A stretch of 64,000 bases of DNA from Bacteroidota bacterium (GTDB lineage: Bacteria; Bacteroidota; JABWAT01), in contig JAKLJL010000001.1 in NCBI GenBank assembly GCA_023151185.1, forward strand, positions 496,001-560,000. The letters are read 5' to 3'. Below, one piece after another: positions 13,656-36,631 of the stretch. How positions within the stretch are numbered: position 1 is the first letter of the stretch; each line of letters begins with the position of its first letter. A program made the position numbers and the translations under genes. The notes below the pieces were generated by a model. It worked only from the letters and a program-made list of their open reading frames with translations, had not been told where the DNA came from and made no database searches.

Positions 13656-14408
13656 ATGCCGAAAACGATTATCGCCGGTAACTGGAAAATGAACAAAACC
13701 CTGTCTGAGTCCGTTCAACTGGCTTCGGATGTTGTAAAATCTGCCGGTAAAGCAAGTCCGGGTGTTGAACTCGTGGTATGTCCGGTTTTTACTCATATCG
13801 AAGCTGTAAAGGAAGTGATCAAGGGAAGCCCTGTTAAGCTTGGGGCCCAGAATTGCTATCCGGCAGACTCGGGTGCCTACACCGGCGAAGTATCGGGTTC
13901 AATGCTCAAGGCAATTGGTGTGGATTATGTGATTCTTGGGCACTCAGAACGGCGTCAGTATTTCCATGAAACGAATGAATTTATCAACAAGAAAATTCAT
14001 CATGTTCTGGCTCACGGCATGAAGCCAATCTATTGTGTCGGTGAACTGCTTGAAGAACGGGAAAAGGGTATTACTCCTGCAGTTGTAACCGAACAGATTG
14101 AAAAAGGTTTGGCCGGAATCACCCCCGACCAAATGAAAAATGTGGTTATCGCCTATGAGCCGGTTTGGGCTATCGGAACCGGTAAAGTGGCAACCCCTGA
14201 ACAAGCCAATGAAGTTCATCTTCTCATCAGAAACCTGCTGGTAAAACTTGCCGGTGAAGCCGGTAAAGAGGTTACCATTCAGTATGGCGGATCCATGAAA
14301 CCGGATAATGCCGGGGAACTTCTGGCCCAATCCGAAATCAATGGCGGACTGATTGGCGGGGCCGCACTGAAAGCCGATGATTTTCTGGCCATTGTGTCAG
14401 CAAAATAA
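13656..14408 (+). CDS. tpiA: Triosephosphate isomerase
   Basis: 250 residues, typical length. Interconverts dihydroxyacetone phosphate and glyceraldehyde-3-phosphate in glycolysis. Visible active-site elements: N9-x-K11 in GNWKMN, the catalytic histidine in LGHSERR (about residue 96), the catalytic glutamate and flexible loop in YEPVWAIGTGK (about 167-177), and the phosphate-binding YGGS and GGLIGGAAL near the end. AAAGGA lies about 12 bases upstream of the ATG. Monocistronic: predicted promoter before it and a strong terminator after it. Confidence 0.98.
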   Translation: MPKTIIAGNWKMNKTLSESVQLASDVVKSAGKASPGVELVVCPVFTHIEAVKEVIKGSPVKLGAQNCYPADSGAYTGEVSGSMLKAIGVDYVILGHSERRQYFHETNEFINKKIHHVLAHGMKPIYCVGELLEEREKGITPAVVTEQIEKGLAGITPDQMKNVVIAYEPVWAIGTGKVATPEQANEVHLLIRNLLVKLAGEAGKEVTIQYGGSMKPDNAGELLAQSEINGGLIGGAALKADDFLAIVSAK

Positions 14409-29861: not shown

Positions 29862-29958
29862 ATGTTGTTAAAGCTGAAAAAACAGAATAATCTTCCATTT
29901 CTGTTTGGTTTGGTACACTCATTTGGCAGGAAATGACTTAAAAATTAAAGAACAGCTA

Positions 29959-29987
29959 TTGACATACTGCCAAACCTTCCGTATACT
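29959..29987 (+). promoter_or_regulatory. Near-consensus sigma70 promoter of the ilv-leu operon
   Basis: TTGACA (29959-29964), 17-base spacer, TATACT (29982-29987). Transcription would start near 29994, about 45 bases before the leader-peptide ATG. Confidence 0.75.
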
Positions 29988-30038
29988 TGCTGAAGGAATT
30001 AAAAAAATCACGACTTCTTCCTTAATTTCTAAAATAAA

Positions 30039-30182
30039 ATGACCAAAGTGCTGACATATCCGGTTTCAATAGTTACAGACAGGGCACCTGGTCGTCTTTT
30101 GTCCGTTTCTTTAACCCTACCGAACCTTCTGCTTCTTGTGGGCCTTACCGTTCTTCTTCTTGGTATTATTACCGTGAACTAA
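30039..30182 (+). CDS. ilv-type leader peptide (47 residues)
   Basis: An ATG-to-TAA frame of 48 codons begins about 45 bases after the predicted transcription start. Its composition is extreme: 13 Leu, 7 Val and 3 Ile in 47 residues. In residues 30-46, 13 of 17 are Leu, Val or Ile (LLLLVGLTVLLLGIITV), and Thr fills two more. It sits directly upstream of ilvB, whose products are these amino acids, and is followed by competing hairpins. This matches the logic of the enterobacterial ilv leaders, where ribosome stalling at scarce codons sets downstream transcription. There is no obvious Shine-Dalgarno; AAAATAAA precedes the ATG. A small membrane peptide is the main alternative. Confidence 0.7.
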   Translation: MTKVLTYPVSIVTDRAPGRLLSVSLTLPNLLLLVGLTVLLLGIITVN

Positions 30183-30511
30183 GAACATAATGGTCAGCCT
30201 GAAGATCTAACTCCCAAAAAACAAAAACCCAGGCTGACCAGCCTGAAGAATCAGCCGGAACGGCAGACCCAGATTTCATATTTGAACTGAGGTAATGTAG
30301 TGGCTGTTTATTATCAATACTCACCGCAATGGTCAGAGCCGGAATCCAGTGCATTCCGTGACAACCCGGGTAAAATGCCAGGTGCTGACTGCTGCCGGTT
30401 AAGGCATCACCCATCAAACCCTCTTTCCGTCCCGAAGTTTACCCATCCCGAATCTTTCAGTTTGTTACCAACCTGTCCGTTTCCCGGACCCAAAATCGTA
30501 TGGAGACAATT
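30183..30511 (+). other. Untranslated ilv leader between leader peptide and ilvB
   Basis: About 330 bases with no credible gene. Competing stems occupy 30191-30245. Smaller hairpins are at 30340-30358 (CGGAAT / ATTCCG) and 30475-30489 (GTCCG / CGGAC). TGGTCAG at 30330-30336 could also pair with CTGACCA at 30234-30240. I found no GC stem followed by a T-tract, so a classic intrinsic attenuator is not evident. Confidence 0.5.
30191..30245 (+). promoter_or_regulatory. Mutually exclusive attenuator-like stems
   Basis: TGGTCAGCCTG (30191-30201) pairs perfectly over 11 bases with CAGGCTGACCA (30230-30240). The same CAGGCT (30230-30235) can instead pair with AGCCTG (30240-30245) in a tight GACC-loop hairpin. 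Both cannot form at once. The 5' arm begins 9 bases after the leader-peptide stop, so a ribosome at the stop codon would mask it, while one stalled earlier would not. Confidence 0.55.
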
Positions 30512-32239
30512 ATGAGTCAGACCGGAAAAGAATTAAACGGTGCAGAAATTTTTCTGGAATCCCTCCGAAAAGAAGGAGTGGATACCATCTTTGGCTATCC
30601 GGGTGGGGCTGTGCTCGGAATTTATGATAAACTGTATGACTGTGATTTTATCCATCACATCCTGGTCCGGCATGAGCAGGGGGCAGCCCACATGGCAGAG
30701 GGATATGCCAAGGCAACCGGCAAGGTTGGGGTTGTGCTGGTCACTTCAGGTCCTGGTGCAACGAATACCGTTACCGGGATCGCCGACGCCTACATGGATT
30801 CAATTCCTCTGGTAGTTTTTACCGGTCAGGTGCCCTCAAAATTAATCGGTAATGATGCCTTTCAGGAAGCGGATATTGTCGGGATTACCCGTCCGATCAC
30901 CAAACATAATTTTCTGGTCAAGGATGTTGAAGAGCTTGCTTCCACCATTAAAAAGGCATTTTTCATTGCGTCTACCGGACGGCCCGGTCCTGTTCTCATT
31001 GATATGCCCAAAGATATGCTGGCAAAAACAACCCGGTTTGTTTACCCCGACCAGGTCGATATCAAAGGGTATAAACCCACCATCAGTGGTCACTCCCAGC
31101 AAATTAAAAAGGCAGCAGCAGCCTTCCGGAAAGCTAAAAGACCCCTTCTGTACGTTGGCGGCGGCGTCGTTATGGCCGGTGCACACCGTGAACTGGGGTT
31201 ACTGGCTCAGGAAGCAGGAATCCCGGTGACGATGACCCTTCAGGGGTTAGGTGCCTTCCCGATGACAGATCCACTTTCATTGGGAATGCTTGGTATGCAC
31301 GGAACCTTCTGGGCCAACATGGCAACCGAAAACTGTGACCTTCTGGTTTCACTGGGTGCCCGGTTCGATGACCGGGTGACAGGAAATACAGAGACCTTTG
31401 CCCGGAATGCCTATAAAATTCAGGTTGATATTGACCCGACGGCTATCGACAAAAACGTTCGGGTCGATCTGCCGATTGTCGGTGATCTGAAATCCGTTCT
31501 CGCTGATCTGCTGACCGAACTTTCAGAAAAACCGGTTCAGTCTGACTACTCGGACTGGTGGACCATGATTCAGCAGTGGAAGGATGCCTGCCCGCTGGAG
31601 TATGACAACCACGATGGAAAACTCAGAGCCCAGTTTGTGCTTCAAAAAATATCAGAAAAGGTTAAAGGCCAGGCTGTTGTGGTCACTGACGTGGGCCAAC
31701 ATCAGATGTGGGCAACCCAGTGGATACAGTTTGACCACCCCCGGTCGCACATTACCTCAGGCGGACTCGGAACCATGGGATTTTCGGTTCCCGCTGCAAT
31801 CGGAGCTGCTTTTGCCGTAACGGACCGGCCGGTAATTTCGATTTCGGGAGATGGCGGATTTCAAATGAATATGCAGGAACTGATCACCGCCGCACACCAC
31901 AAACTTCCGGTCAAGTTTATCATCCTGAATAACAGTTTTCTGGGAATGGTCCGCCAGTGGCAGGGACTTTTTTACAAGGAAAAATTCAGCTTTACAGACC
32001 TGTCAGCCTCAAACCCGGACTTTGTGAAAGTGGCTGAAGCTTTCGGGTGCAAGGGATTGTCGACAGACTCACCGGATGAGGTTGATGCCCTTCTGGATGC
32101 CGTTCTTGCTTATAATGAGGGTCCGGTTCTTGCCGAATTTAAGGTGGTGAAGGAGGAAATGGTTTTCCCGATGGTGCCTTCAGGCGGCTCGATGCGGGAT
32201 ATTATGGTAAAACGTCTTGACCCGAACCGTCTGGTCTAA
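30512..32239 (+). CDS. ilvB: Acetolactate synthase, catalytic subunit
   Basis: 575 residues from the ATG at 30512; ATG 30500 is in frame, but GGAGA lies just ahead of 30512. A ThDP enzyme joining two pyruvates to acetolactate, or pyruvate with 2-oxobutanoate. It has the catalytic Glu in HEQGAAHMAEGYA (about residue 51), the FAD/central domain (LGMLGMHGTFWAN, GARFDDRVTG), and the ThDP-Mg motif SGDGGFQMNMQEL...NNSFLGMVRQWQ in the C-terminal domain. It is the first structural gene after the leader; ilvN follows after 26 bases. Confidence 0.97.
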   Translation: MSQTGKELNGAEIFLESLRKEGVDTIFGYPGGAVLGIYDKLYDCDFIHHILVRHEQGAAHMAEGYAKATGKVGVVLVTSGPGATNTVTGIADAYMDSIPLVVFTGQVPSKLIGNDAFQEADIVGITRPITKHNFLVKDVEELASTIKKAFFIASTGRPGPVLIDMPKDMLAKTTRFVYPDQVDIKGYKPTISGHSQQIKKAAAAFRKAKRPLLYVGGGVVMAGAHRELGLLAQEAGIPVTMTLQGLGAFPMTDPLSLGMLGMHGTFWANMATENCDLLVSLGARFDDRVTGNTETFARNAYKIQVDIDPTAIDKNVRVDLPIVGDLKSVLADLLTELSEKPVQSDYSDWWTMIQQWKDACPLEYDNHDGKLRAQFVLQKISEKVKGQAVVVTDVGQHQMWATQWIQFDHPRSHITSGGLGTMGFSVPAAIGAAFAVTDRPVISISGDGGFQMNMQELITAAHHKLPVKFIILNNSFLGMVRQWQGLFYKEKFSFTDLSASNPDFVKVAEAFGCKGLSTDSPDEVDALLDAVLAYNEGPVLAEFKVVKEEMVFPMVPSGGSMRDIMVKRLDPNRLV

Positions 32240-32265: not shown

Positions 32266-32778
32266 ATGAAAAAAATTATATCCGTTCTGGTTGAAAATAA
32301 ATTCGGAGCCCTGAACCGGGTTGCAACAATGTTCAGCGGCCGGGGATTCAATATCCATTCTATCTCAATTGGTGTCACAGAAGATCCTGAAGTCTCACGG
32401 ATGACGATTGTGACATCCGGCGAAGCCAACATTCTGGATCAGATTATCAAACAACTGAACCGCCTGATTGACACGATTAAAGTGGTTGACCTCTCGGCAG
32501 AAAACCATGTCGCCAGAGAACTTGCCATGATTTCTGTCAATTACCAAAAAGGAATCCGGTCTGAAATTATGAACATCGTGGAGGTTTTTCAGGGAAAAGT
32601 GGTGGATATCACGATCAAGTCCATAACCATTGAAGTCACCGGTCCTCCTGATAAAATCGATGCCTTTATCAATATGGTCTCGCCTTACGGAATCAAAGAA
32701 GTGGCCCGTTCAGGACTGGTGGCTCTGAAACGGGAAGAACAGGTTGTCGTCAGGAAAAAAGAAGTTCATATTGCCTGA
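32266..32778 (+). CDS. ilvN: Acetolactate synthase, regulatory subunit
   Basis: 170 residues. The N-terminal ACT domain ([26 protein letters not shown], about 4-29) binds valine and gives feedback inhibition of IlvB; the C-terminal domain continues the ALS small-subunit fold (about 80-160). The length is that of the common IlvN/IlvH type. The coupled pair ilvB-ilvN and then ilvC after 38 bases indicate one operon. Confidence 0.95.
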
Positions 32779-32816: not shown

Positions 32817-33833
32817 ATGAAAGTGTATTATAGTGATGATGCTTCCCTTGACCTGATTCTCGGGAAAAAAATTGCCGTGATTGGTTTTGGAAGTCAGGGT
32901 CATGCCCATGCCCTGAATTTACATGACAGCGGCGTTGATGTAGCTGTCGGCCTCAGAAAAGAAAGTTCAAGCTGGGCAAAGGCAGAAGCTGCCGGCCTGA
33001 AAGTCAAAACGGTTTCAGATGCTTCTGCCTGGGCGGATATTATTATGATTTTGCTGCCGGATCAAACCCAGAAGTCGGTTTATGACGCAGAAATTGCCCC
33101 CCACCTTACCGCAGGAAAAACCCTTGCATTCGCACATGGTTTTAATATCCACTTTAAAGTAATTGTTCCGCCTGCCAATGTAAACGTCATCATGATTGCA
33201 CCGAAAAGCCCTGGTCATCTGGTTCGCCGGACTTACGTTCAGGGCAACGGTGTTCCCTGTCTCGTTGCGGTTTACCAGAATGCAACCGGTGATGCGCTGA
33301 ATCTTGCACTTGCCTGGGCAAAAGGGATCGGCGGTACTTTCGCCGGTGTCATTGAAACCACATTTAAAGATGAAACTGAAACGGATCTTTTCGGCGAACA
33401 GGCTGTCCTGTGCGGCGGGTCTGCTGAAATTATCAAGGCAGGTTTTGAAACTCTGGTTGAAGCCGGGTATTCGCCGGAACTGGCCTATTTTGAGTGTATG
33501 CATGAACTCAAACTGATTGTGGATCTCTATTACGAAGGCGGATTAAGCCGGATGAACTATTCAGTTTCTGACACTGCCGAATTTGGCGGAATGACCCGCG
33601 GACCCCGCCTGGTAACGGCTGAGACCAAAAAGGAAATGAAGAAAATTCTCGAGGAGATCCAATCCGGACAGTTTGCAAAGGAATTTCTTGCCGAAACCCA
33701 GGGATCCAAGGCAAACTTCGAAAAACTCAGGAAGGAAAACCGGGAGCATCCCATCGAAAAAGTAGGTGCCAAACTCAGAGGGATGATGAGCTTCCTGTTC
33801 AAAAAGGATAAAAGAGAAGAAGTCGGTGTGTAA
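32817..33833 (+). CDS. ilvC: Ketol-acid reductoisomerase
   Basis: 338 residues, class I (short) enzyme. Isomerises and reduces acetolactate or acetohydroxybutyrate with NADPH. The Rossmann motif is [17 protein letters not shown] (about 22-38), and [13 protein letters not shown] and the knotted C-terminal domain with [12 protein letters not shown] (Mg-binding Asp/Glu) and the [13 protein letters not shown] segment are all intact. An intercistronic hairpin (CACCGG 33845-33850 with CCGGTG 33869-33874) separates it from leuB. Confidence 0.97.
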
Positions 33834-33906: not shown

Positions 33907-35004
33907 ATGAATTTTAAGATTGTTGTTCTGCCCGGAGACGGAATCGGGCCGGAAGTTGTGGAAGCCTCCATCCCGGTGATGACCGAGGTCGGGAAAAAAT
34001 TTGGTGTCAGCTTTGAGTTTGACGTCCGCCTTTTCGGCGGGTGCAGTTATGATCAATCTGGTGAACCGGTTACTGAAGAAACGCTTGCAGCCTGTGCCAA
34101 TGCCGATGCTGTCCTGCTGGGTGCTGTTGGCGGTCCGAAGTGGGAAGCCCTTCCTCATGATAAAAAACCGGAAGCCGGACTTCTGAAACTCAGAAAAGCG
34201 CTTGAATTATATGCCAACATCCGGCCGGCCAGAGTTTATAACGGCCTGGCCGAAGGGTCCACTTTGAAAAAAGAAGTGATTTCGGGGGTCGACCTGATCG
34301 TCGTAAGGGAACTGACCGGAGGGTTGTACTTTGGTCAGCCAAGGGGAATGTCAGCGGACAGAGGCTGGAACACGATGGCTTATACAAGGGAAGAAATTGT
34401 CCGGATTGCCAGGTCAGCTTTTTCCCTCGCTGCCAAACGCCGGAAAACCCTGGTTTCTGTGGATAAAGCCAATGTACTCGAGGTATCCCAATTCTGGCGG
34501 AATGTCGTTATCGAAGTTGCAAAGGACTTCCCGGATGTTAAACTGAGCCATATGTATGTGGATAATGCAGCAATGCAACTGGTCAGAAATCCGGGACAGT
34601 TTGACGTGATGCTGACCGAGAATATGTTTGGGGATATTCTGAGTGACATCGCTTCAATGATTCCCGGAAGTTTGGGCATGCTTCCTTCTGCCTCTCTCGG
34701 CACGAAATATGCCCTTTATGAACCTGTCCATGGATCTGCCCCTGATATTGCAGGTCAGAACAAGGCAAACCCGATTGCGACCATTGCTTCGATTGCAATG
34801 CTGTTCGACAGCAGCCTGGGAATGCACATCGCGGGTGATTATATCCAGAAATCAATCGAAAAAACTCTGGAGCAGGGGTACCGAACCGCCGATATCTATT
34901 CAGAAGGGACCACACTCCTGGGTACCAGGGAAATGGCCGAAAAGATCAGAGAGTCCTTTTTACAGATAGTTGAGGAACAGCCTTACGGGTTTGCCGTAGC
35001 CTGA
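33907..35004 (+). CDS. leuB: 3-Isopropylmalate dehydrogenase
   Basis: 365 residues. Oxidises and decarboxylates 3-isopropylmalate with NAD+ in leucine synthesis. The start KIVVLPGDGIGPEV, the substrate loop LLKLRKALELYANIRPARVY, RELTGGLYFGQPRG, and the metal-binding DNAAMQL...NMFGDILSD and EPVHGSAPDIAGQNKANP are diagnostic. AAAGGCAAAAAG precedes the ATG. Here leuB precedes leuA, leuC and leuD, whereas many organisms place it between or after them. Confidence 0.97.
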   Translation: MNFKIVVLPGDGIGPEVVEASIPVMTEVGKKFGVSFEFDVRLFGGCSYDQSGEPVTEETLAACANADAVLLGAVGGPKWEALPHDKKPEAGLLKLRKALELYANIRPARVYNGLAEGSTLKKEVISGVDLIVVRELTGGLYFGQPRGMSADRGWNTMAYTREEIVRIARSAFSLAAKRRKTLVSVDKANVLEVSQFWRNVVIEVAKDFPDVKLSHMYVDNAAMQLVRNPGQFDVMLTENMFGDILSDIASMIPGSLGMLPSASLGTKYALYEPVHGSAPDIAGQNKANPIATIASIAMLFDSSLGMHIAGDYIQKSIEKTLEQGYRTADIYSEGTTLLGTREMAEKIRESFLQIVEEQPYGFAVA

Positions 35005-35035: not shown

Positions 35036-36631
35036 ATGTCAGAAAAAATCATCATCTTCGACACAACACTGAGAGACGGGGAACAATCTCCGGGTGCTTC
35101 GCTGACCGTTTTTGAAAAAGTGGAAATTGCCCGTCAGCTTGAAAGGATGAAAGTGGATGTGATCGAAGCCGGATTCCCGGTTTCCTCACCGGCACAGTTT
35201 GAAGCCGTTCAGAGAATTGCCGATCAGTCTTCGGTAATTATTGCCGGACTTTGCCGGGCAGTCGAAAAGGATATTAAAGTTGCAGCCGATGCTCTGAAAA
35301 ATGCCAGGAAAAAGAGAATTCATACCTTCACCAGCACTTCAGACATTCATATCCTGGGCAAATTCGGCGATTCCCGATATGGTGAGTCTCTGGCAGAGAA
35401 ACGGAAAACGGTTATTCAGATGACGATGGATGCGGTTAAATATGCCAGAACGTTTACAGAAGATGTTGAATATTCTGCAGAAGATGCCGGGCGAACGGAT
35501 GTAGGATATCTGGCCGAGGTTATTGAAGCCGCCATTGCTGCCGGGGCCACAACTGTTAACATTCCGGATACAACCGGTTACTGCATGCCACAGGAATTCG
35601 GAGCCAAGATCGCTGAATTGAAAAAAAGAGTGCCGAATATCCATCAGGCCGTCATCTCTGTCCATTGTCATAATGACCTCGGACTCTCTGTTGCCAATTC
35701 GCTTTCTGCTGTACTGAACGGGGCAAGGCAGGTAGAATGTACCGTCAACGGAATCGGGGAACGGGCCGGAAATGCCTCTATGGAGGAATTTGTTATGGCT
35801 CTGAATGTCAGAAAGGATATCTGGCCATTTTACACCGACATTCTGACCAGGGAAATTTATAACACCAGCAGAATGGTTTCCGGGTTTACCGGCATGATTG
35901 TCCAGCCCAATAAGGCAATTGTTGGGGATAATGCCTTTGCACACGAATCCGGGATCCATCAGGATGGCATGCTGAAAAACCGGGATACCTATGAAATTAT
36001 GAAGCCGGAAGACGTTGGAATTACCCATAACCGGATTGTCCTTGGACGGCACTCAGGCCGGCATGGTCTTGTTGCCCGGATGAAGGCACTCGGGTATGAG
36101 CTTTCTCCGTCAGAACTGGATGATATTTATGAAAAATTCCTGCTTGTTGCTGACCGTAAAAAAGAAGTGTACGATGAAGACCTCAGAGTCATGATGGGCG
36201 AAGAGGTGCAGAAGCACTTCGATGAACAATATTACCAGCTTGAATATCTTCAGGTTACATTGGGAACGTCGATTGTACCGACTGCAACCGTAAAAGTAAA
36301 AGCCAAAGAAAAATCAATTCAGGAATCCTCTGTTGGGGATGGACCTGTAGATGCAGCTTTTAAAGCAGTTGAACGGGCGCTGAAAACTCATGTTACCATC
36401 GAGAATTATCAGGTCAGATCGGTGACCGGCGGCCGGGATGCCGTTGGTGAGGTTATCCTCAGAATCCGGGATAACGGAAAAGCCTTCACAGGCAAGGGTA
36501 ATTCTACTGATATTGTCGAAGCAAGTGTCCGGGCATTTTTAAATGCTCTGAATCACAAAAAGCAATATGATAAAGACCGGCACGAACAGACTGTTTCAAT
36601 CTGGCAGGACAATCCGGTCCGGTTTGTATAA
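35036..36631 (+). CDS. leuA: 2-Isopropylmalate synthase
   Basis: 531 residues. Condenses acetyl-CoA with 2-oxoisovalerate, the first committed step to leucine. The TIM-barrel catalytic part has FDTTLRDGEQSPGASL, with the metal-binding Asp, then SVHCHNDLGLSVANSLSAV (HxH metal ligands) and NGIGERAGNASMEE; the C-terminal LeuA allosteric domain (about 390-520) is present, so leucine feedback inhibition is expected. It lies 31 bases after leuB. It is a paralogue of cimA at 38621. Confidence 0.96.
   Translation: MSEKIIIFDTTLRDGEQSPGASLTVFEKVEIARQLERMKVDVIEAGFPVSSPAQFEAVQRIADQSSVIIAGLCRAVEKDIKVAADALKNARKKRIHTFTSTSDIHILGKFGDSRYGESLAEKRKTVIQMTMDAVKYARTFTEDVEYSAEDAGRTDVGYLAEVIEAAIAAGATTVNIPDTTGYCMPQEFGAKIAELKKRVPNIHQAVISVHCHNDLGLSVANSLSAVLNGARQVECTVNGIGERAGNASMEEFVMALNVRKDIWPFYTDILTREIYNTSRMVSGFTGMIVQPNKAIVGDNAFAHESGIHQDGMLKNRDTYEIMKPEDVGITHNRIVLGRHSGRHGLVARMKALGYELSPSELDDIYEKFLLVADRKKEVYDEDLRVMMGEEVQKHFDEQYYQLEYLQVTLGTSIVPTATVKVKAKEKSIQESSVGDGPVDAAFKAVERALKTHVTIENYQVRSVTGGRDAVGEVILRIRDNGKAFTGKGNSTDIVEASVRAFLNALNHKKQYDKDRHEQTVSIWQDNPVRFV

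Follow-up and report, generated by a model that had tools for sequence, protein, structure and literature searches.

The operon ilvBNC-leuBA analyzed here lies on the plus strand of a stretch of 64,000 nucleotides from the genome of a Bacteroidota bacterium, which is called the window in the following. By NCBIfam models, its genes were named ilvB (30512–32239), encoding the large subunit of acetolactate synthase (TIGR00118, above cut-off), ilvN (32266–32778; TIGR00119), ilvC (32817–33833; TIGR00465), leuB (33907–35004; TIGR00169), and leuA (35036–36631; TIGR00973). The nearest named relatives of its IlvB were found in metagenome-assembled Bacteroidetes (86% identity), followed mostly by Ignavibacteria (68–73%). 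For the class of the window, four genomes were compared, namely its own (G000) and three relatives (G001, G002, and G003).

Upstream of the operon, a sigma-70-like promoter (TTGACA-17-TATACT) was recognized in the plus-strand sequence at 29959–29987. According to the alignment, its spacing of 17 is also present in the three class relatives, twice as TTGACA-17-TATTAT and once as TTGACT-17-TATCAT. Further downstream on the same strand lies a leader ORF (30039–30182; stop codon 30180–30182), which encodes 47 amino acids (MTKVLTYPVSIVTDRAPGRLLSVSLTLPNLLLLVGLTVLLLGIITVN), has the C-terminal half LPNLLLLVGLTVLLLGIITVN and is conserved in G001, G002, and G003. Its control codons are those for leucine, valine, and isoleucine, and 14 of its last 22 residues are isoleucine, leucine or valine. 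The textbook mechanism of attenuation has been described mainly for proteobacteria and Gram-positive bacteria. The structures described below are located between this leader ORF and the operon, all of them on the plus strand.

Two competing stems behind the leader ORF

Arm A (TGGTCAGCCTG, 30191–30201), which corresponds to region 2 of an attenuator, and arm B (CAGGCTGACCA, 30230–30240), which corresponds to region 3, form a perfect 11-bp stem starting at the ninth base after the leader stop codon. They enclose an A-rich loop (30202–30229), in which 12 of the 28 aligned bases are identical to G001. Arm B is common to both folds. Its bases CAGGCT (30230–30235) can pair over a GACC loop with arm C (AGCCTG, 30240–30245; region 4) instead of with arm A, so that the two folds are mutually exclusive. 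This arrangement is found exactly as the preliminary description of the locus had given it, and the same holds for the remark that no GC stem with a U-tract follows: no terminator-like site was detected on the plus strand, and only one uridine is present in the 8 nt after B:C.

In dinucleotide shuffles of 30183–30299, an 11-bp Watson-Crick stem arose in 5 of 3,000 cases, and such a stem plus a competing one of at least 6 bp in none of 3,000, which rules out a chance repeat. The fold of 30183–30300 has a z-score of −4.2, with 1 of 200 shuffles being as stable. Taken alone, B:C in the window does not stand out significantly from shuffles in which its 3′ side was randomized (p = 0.133), and its support is therefore drawn from the relatives. 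Performed leader by leader, the same comparison gives a weak result (median p 0.195; p ≤ 0.05 in 5 of 40 leaders), probably because arm B alone can partly fold on itself, and a partner-swap test was used in its place.

Two further similarities were observed downstream of arm C. The stretch at 30262–30272 (GGCAGACCCAG), noticed by eye, nearly repeats arm B (GGCUGACCAG) and could pair with arm A, and 30252–30258 resembles arms A and C. The block that contains these stretches may represent a chain of alternative pairings.

The response of the RNA to a ribosome was predicted by blocking the bases after the leader stop codon, mimicking the ribosome, and then predicting the fold. For the window, the predicted fold changes from A:B to B:C between 12 and 13 blocked nucleotides, with the probability of A:B falling from 0.88 to 0.04. 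With RNA reaching only to just past arm C, the flip is predicted at 15 blocked nucleotides, and over 40 leaders the median position of the predicted flip is 12 nt behind the stop codon (quartiles 10–14). A terminating ribosome covers about 10–12 nt past the stop codon. Given a flip at 13–15 nt, the geometry in the window is thus right, but not generous. The earlier claim that a ribosome at the stop codon would cover the upstream arm holds in part, as only the first few bases of arm A are covered, which is roughly enough for the flip predicted at 13–15 nt. Judging from the coordinates and the usual ribosome footprint, stalls within the run of leucine, valine, and isoleucine codons would leave arm A free.

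Covariation of the arms in relatives

Leader ORFs rich in isoleucine, leucine, and valine, mostly about 45–80 amino acids long, were identified upstream of ilvD or ilvB in Ignavibacteria, Calditrichia, Rhodothermales, and Chlorobi. In the non-Chlorobi leaders, an arm GGTCAATCCC or a variant of it lies within about 5–10 nt of the leader ORF and is followed by a loop and then by GGGATTGACC. A covariance model of the A:B stem, which was built from 12 leaders with the window left out, matches 43 of 394 genomes of the phylum at E ≤ 0.05, and 41 of 370 among the good-quality genomes. Of the 30 loci retrieved with the model, 28 carry a leader ORF whose last 22 residues include at least 10 isoleucines, leucines or valines; the loci L169 and L170 have no such leader ORF and were excluded from later counts. 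Some of the loci were assigned to Rhodothermales or to Ignavibacteria/Calditrichia by their similarity to loci of known affiliation. The model matches neither the window nor its three class relatives, whose arm is GGTCAGCCTG, and the window is therefore placed with the wider element by its position, its leader ORF and its structure.

Covariation of the arms, a check proposed in the preliminary description, was found in the relatives. In the 28 model-aligned leaders, which do not include the window, 91.6% of the A:B cells are paired, in an alignment that contains 11 of the 12 model builders and leans to the structure. Here, 46 double-changed cells were counted compared to 14.5 in shuffles (0 of 500 shuffles as high), changes on both sides occur in 8 of the 14 pairs, and pairing falls to about 55% if the partner is slid by one column. 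Since a single model cannot hold both A:B and B:C, a partner-swap permutation (5,000 permutations, minimum p 0.0002) was applied to 36 of the 40 leaders, with four near-duplicates omitted, the arm ends of three set by hand and ancestry not corrected for. The leaders' own partners gave −21.2 kcal/mol vs. −15.0 kcal/mol for swapped partners in A:B and −9.7 vs. −6.7 kcal/mol in B:C (p = 0.0002 each), and the pairing of the A-B loop with the next translation start reached p = 0.0002 as well. The covariation of A:B and that of B:C each hold separately in Rhodothermales and in Ignavibacteria/Calditrichia. Pairing of arm A with the start region, considered as a general output, was rejected (p = 0.16 over 36 leaders) and serves as a control.

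A possible region 1 is located inside the leader ORF (30125–30143), which is predicted by duplex calculations to pair with arm A or with the C side. Pairing of the leader ORF with arm A covaries over the 36 leaders (p = 0.0002, the minimum of the partner-swap test) and in Ignavibacteria/Calditrichia, with no support in Rhodothermales (p 0.24 and p 0.56 in two analyses) or within the class of the window (n = 3, p 0.17). Similarly, the pairing between regions 1 and 4 reached p 0.0006 when all 36 leaders were taken together and p 0.02 for Ignavibacteria/Calditrichia, with no support within the class of the window or in Rhodothermales.

The inverted repeat might also be read on the other strand, as a terminator for antisense transcription. 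Indeed, a terminator-like site is present on the minus strand from 30247 to 30228, where B:C is followed by TTTTTGTTTT. However, the covariation of the plus strand and the position after leader ORFs rich in isoleucine, leucine, and valine speak against this reading, as do the A:B cells, which contain 29 G-U vs. 13 A-C combinations, a count made in an alignment fitted to the plus strand. An antisense terminator is thus considered most improbable. In turn, the covariation in relatives and the predicted flip over 40 leaders support a switch that is read by the leader ribosome. Its physiological signal is suggested by the leader codons to be leucine, valine, and isoleucine.

In Rfam, no match at the gathering score was obtained in the window, no leader family for branched-chain amino acids (BCAA) was found at E ≤ 10 in 29950–30530, and no match was obtained at the leaders of 11 related loci. 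Seven weak matches viewed in a DNA similarity search for further copies fall within coding genes or at the end of a gene and appear to be chance matches, and a short pattern search of the own genome gave no lead among the matches viewed. Three neighboring observations concern other loci. In a Desulfobacterales locus (L083, about 2055–2220), a strong hairpin with a long U-tract lies behind a 28-residue leader rich in isoleucine, leucine, and valine, an arrangement that resembles a classical attenuator of the same genes. A SAM riboswitch (L033, 1662–1764, minus strand) adjoins the ilvD leader of an Ignavibacteria locus, and in a KSB1 genome (L107, 2043–2183) a leader ORF rich in leucine and phenylalanine precedes ilvD without a recognizable A:B stem.

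Output of the switch in the relatives and in the window

In Chlorobi, 8 of 10 loci have at least 6 uridines among the 8 nt behind the second hairpin, whereas L038 and L043 have 3. Among the non-Chlorobi leaders, at least 5 uridines in the 8 nt after B:C were counted in only 2 of 40, a count in which the automatic pick is not the obvious B:C hairpin for L036, L068, L144, and L167.

In the Rhodothermus group, the A-B loop CUUCACAGG can pair with CCUGUGAGG, the Shine-Dalgarno sequence of ilvB, and in other Rhodothermales the loop sequence GGUAUC or GGCAUC can pair with GAUGCC at the start of a second ORF. For the Rhodothermales, the B:C state is predicted to raise the opening cost of the next start region over that in the A:B state by 4.9 kcal/mol on average, with a positive difference in 17 of 17 leaders. 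At a control site lying 31 nt downstream, the mean is +0.1 kcal/mol, with values above 0.5 in 6 of 17. The same start-locking test is neutral in Ignavibacteria/Calditrichia (7 up and 6 down of 20), and when start accessibility had been assessed earlier without forcing the hairpin, 26 of 40 leaders went up and 5 down. These predictions suggest that the output of the switch differs by lineage, with a U-tract terminator in Chlorobi and a locked next start codon in Rhodothermales. In Ignavibacteria/Calditrichia (L032–L037, L150–L168), many leaders carry a motif like AUCUGAAG or UCUGAGG, which lies 10–30 nt after arm C and before the ilvD start.

The window has neither the U-tract terminator of Chlorobi nor the strongly locked start of Rhodothermales. 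Its genome contains U-tract terminators elsewhere, i.e., after 13656–14408 and between the convergent pair 54139/55223, and the caution of the preliminary description toward intrinsic termination is therefore justified. B:C itself could nevertheless stop or pause the RNA polymerase without a U-tract, in a classical attenuation with an unusual terminator to which the second ORF of the locus (ORF2) would be incidental. The presence of the other segments of a classical attenuator, together with the terminators at the same place in the Chlorobi relatives, fits this explanation. It is made fairly unlikely by the single uridine after B:C and the scarcity of uridines in the 40 leaders, by the terminators that the genome uses elsewhere, and by the strongest conservation, which runs 48 nt beyond arm C to the Shine-Dalgarno sequence of ORF2.

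This near-invariant block reaches from arm B to the sequence UGAGGU (30230–30293), and 61 of its 63 aligned bases are identical to G001, compared to 112 of 206 in the spacer after the block and 483 of 600 in the first 600 nt of ilvB. It ends with hairpin L (ACCCAG/CUGAGGU, 30267–30293), which holds the ORF2 Shine-Dalgarno sequence GAGGU at 30289–30293 and has similar counterparts in G001, G002, and G003. As the conserved bases include unpaired ones, hairpin L and its invariant flanks could be bound by a protein or cut by an RNase, with the stems of A, B, and C only tuning this event. A simpler reason for the conservation is that the block holds a good Shine-Dalgarno sequence with start codons 5–7 nt further on; no Rfam family matches, and a role of hairpin L as a protein or RNase target is considered very unlikely.

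ORF2 (30300–30515) starts with GTG, encodes 71 amino acids without a family match and overlaps the ilvB start with its stop codon (ATGA). In G001 and G002, an ORF2 of 72 amino acids starts with ATG and shows the same overlap. A Shine-Dalgarno sequence and a start are present in both G000 and G001, with the start codons at non-homologous places. Among the leaders with a long spacer, 15 of 17 (the exceptions being L068 and L165) contain an ORF2-like frame that runs through the spacer and stops no more than 25 nt from the start of ilvB, a tolerance that was picked after the data had been seen. Grouped by lineage, a spanning ORF is found in 9 of 11 lineages, whereas the shuffles, with the per-leader fractions summed, would give about 2.2. 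In nine ORF2 pairs, dN/dS-like ratios range from 0.5 to 1.6 with no significant synonymous excess (lowest p 0.057), compared to 0–0.13 in five ilvB pairs. The frame of ORF2 is kept, its protein is not, and the amino acids evolve near-neutrally.

Within ORF2, a stretch that is rut-like by composition only was found at 30408–30497, containing 35 C, 10 G, and 28 YC dinucleotides. It has the highest C-over-G value of all 90-nt segments sampled every 10 nt on both strands of the 64 kb. The corresponding stretches of G001 and G002 rank within the top 0.1% for their loci. In Rhodothermales, the rank is at most about 2% in L076, L079, L165, L154, and L151, below 4% in L073 and L068, and 6% in L147; a strong C-over-G stretch is absent in the Rhodothermales long-spacer leaders L050, L051, and L071 as well as in G003. 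The genome of the window encodes Rho.

The switch might gate the access of Rho or an RNase directly in the leader, with ORF2 as a by-product of a low stop-codon density. For a single leader, the chance of a spanning ORF is 0.04–0.51, and the unconserved ORF2 protein as well as the rut-like stretch also fit such direct gating. Against it stand the excess of spanning ORFs over the lineages and the Shine-Dalgarno sequence and start which G000 and G001 share despite non-homologous start positions, and direct gating is regarded as unlikely.

The most probable reading, to which we assign a probability of roughly 0.55, is a ribosome-read attenuator of ilvBNC-leuBA with A, B, and C as segments 2, 3, and 4 and possibly a segment 1 in the leader ORF, whose output runs through the translation of ORF2 with Rho as the terminator. 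If leucine, valine or isoleucine tRNAs are scarce, the ribosome would stall in the leader run, arm A would be free and A:B would form. If they are plentiful, a ribosome at the stop codon would block the start of arm A and B:C would form. B:C would be no intrinsic terminator here, and the output would most likely pass through the next translation start, that of ORF2. An untranslated ORF2 would leave the C-rich RNA open to Rho, and ilvB would lose its coupled ribosome supply; translation of ORF2 would relieve both effects.

For the organism of the window, the step from B:C to ORF2 is suggested by the anatomy of the locus and by the Rhodothermales. In the predictions, a change from A:B to B:C makes the ORF2 start harder to open by only 0.2 kcal/mol while a ribosome occupies the stop codon and by 0.6 kcal/mol once it is released, and the unpaired value of the ORF2 Shine-Dalgarno sequence is 0.17 vs. 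0.18. In the three class relatives, the predicted difference is 0.5–1.1 kcal/mol with the ribosome and 1.6–2.7 kcal/mol after release, with the ilvB start as the site in G003. A switch-dependent opening of the ORF2 or ilvB start is thus essentially absent from the predictions for the window. With regard to the near-copy of arm B at 30262–30272, forcing B:C with arm A free is not predicted to open the ORF2 Shine-Dalgarno sequence either. Overall, the predictions connect the B:C state directly with a locked start codon, strongly in Rhodothermales and weakly in the genus of the window. Rho and translation control, as we infer, are the best candidates for the output.

Tentatively, these features can be combined into a two-ORF relay, in which a BCAA leader switch without a terminator would decide on the translation of an ORF2 of free sequence, which would serve solely to carry ribosomes across a C-rich rut site to the overlap with ilvB. 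One ancestral switch would then possibly act by three outputs in the phylum, namely by intrinsic termination in Chlorobi, by locking of the start codon in Rhodothermales, and by ORF2 and Rho in the class of the window. The sensing half of the attenuator is kept across Ignavibacteria, Calditrichia, Rhodothermales, and Chlorobi, and its output half appears to shift from termination to translation control. If this is true, the way in which attenuators evolve and swap their outputs becomes testable by comparing a few relatives, and small ORFs with a non-conserved protein would gain a function as ribosome shield and relay.

Comparison with known systems

Ribosome-mediated transcription attenuators are known from trp and ilv operons. 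The sensing half of the element in the window resembles that of a ribosome-mediated attenuator; since the U-tract terminator, a defining feature, is lacking, the element is not assigned to this transcription type. No description of it was found in a search of a literature collection that covers subscription papers incompletely.

Closest for gene and leader are the ilvB-II motif of Corynebacterium and ilvB-OMG (PMC10272879). With these, as with the trp and ilv attenuators, the window shares a leader ORF rich in BCAA codons, two exclusive stems downstream of it and the same operon. In ilvB-II, a run of uridines comes after the second stem, which acts as an intrinsic terminator (PMC10272879), whereas the second stem of the window is no intrinsic terminator and is separated from ilvB by a second ORF.

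For Flavobacterium psychrophilum, "strong clues" were reported for a control of transcriptional elongation by leader-peptide attenuation upstream of amino acid operons (PMC9723704). It shares with the window the affiliation to the Bacteroidetes and the class of control; the passage in question contains no description of the element found here, and the term 'ilv' is absent from the main text of that paper.

Variants of the kind proposed here have been suspected before. The LEU element upstream of leuA in Actinobacteria is a pseudoknot, in which leucine codons are paired to the leuA Shine-Dalgarno sequence and for which the authors doubt classical attenuation (PMC1262725). Like the window, it has a leader peptide containing BCAA codons and an alternative structure in which a Shine-Dalgarno sequence takes part, but it differs in anatomy and phylum. 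For actinobacterial leader peptides "without obvious terminators" (cys, cbs), the same authors consider Rho (PMC1262725).

Closest for the proposed output is toiL-topAI of Escherichia coli, where a ribosome stalled in the leader changes the RNA around the next ribosome-binding site and a lack of translation leads to Rho termination downstream (PMC12121999). The toiL leader responds to antibiotics, and its pairing partner is the ribosome-binding site of topAI itself (PMC12121999), whereas the window has amino acid codons, a separate A/B/C switch and a putative relay ORF in front of the structural gene.
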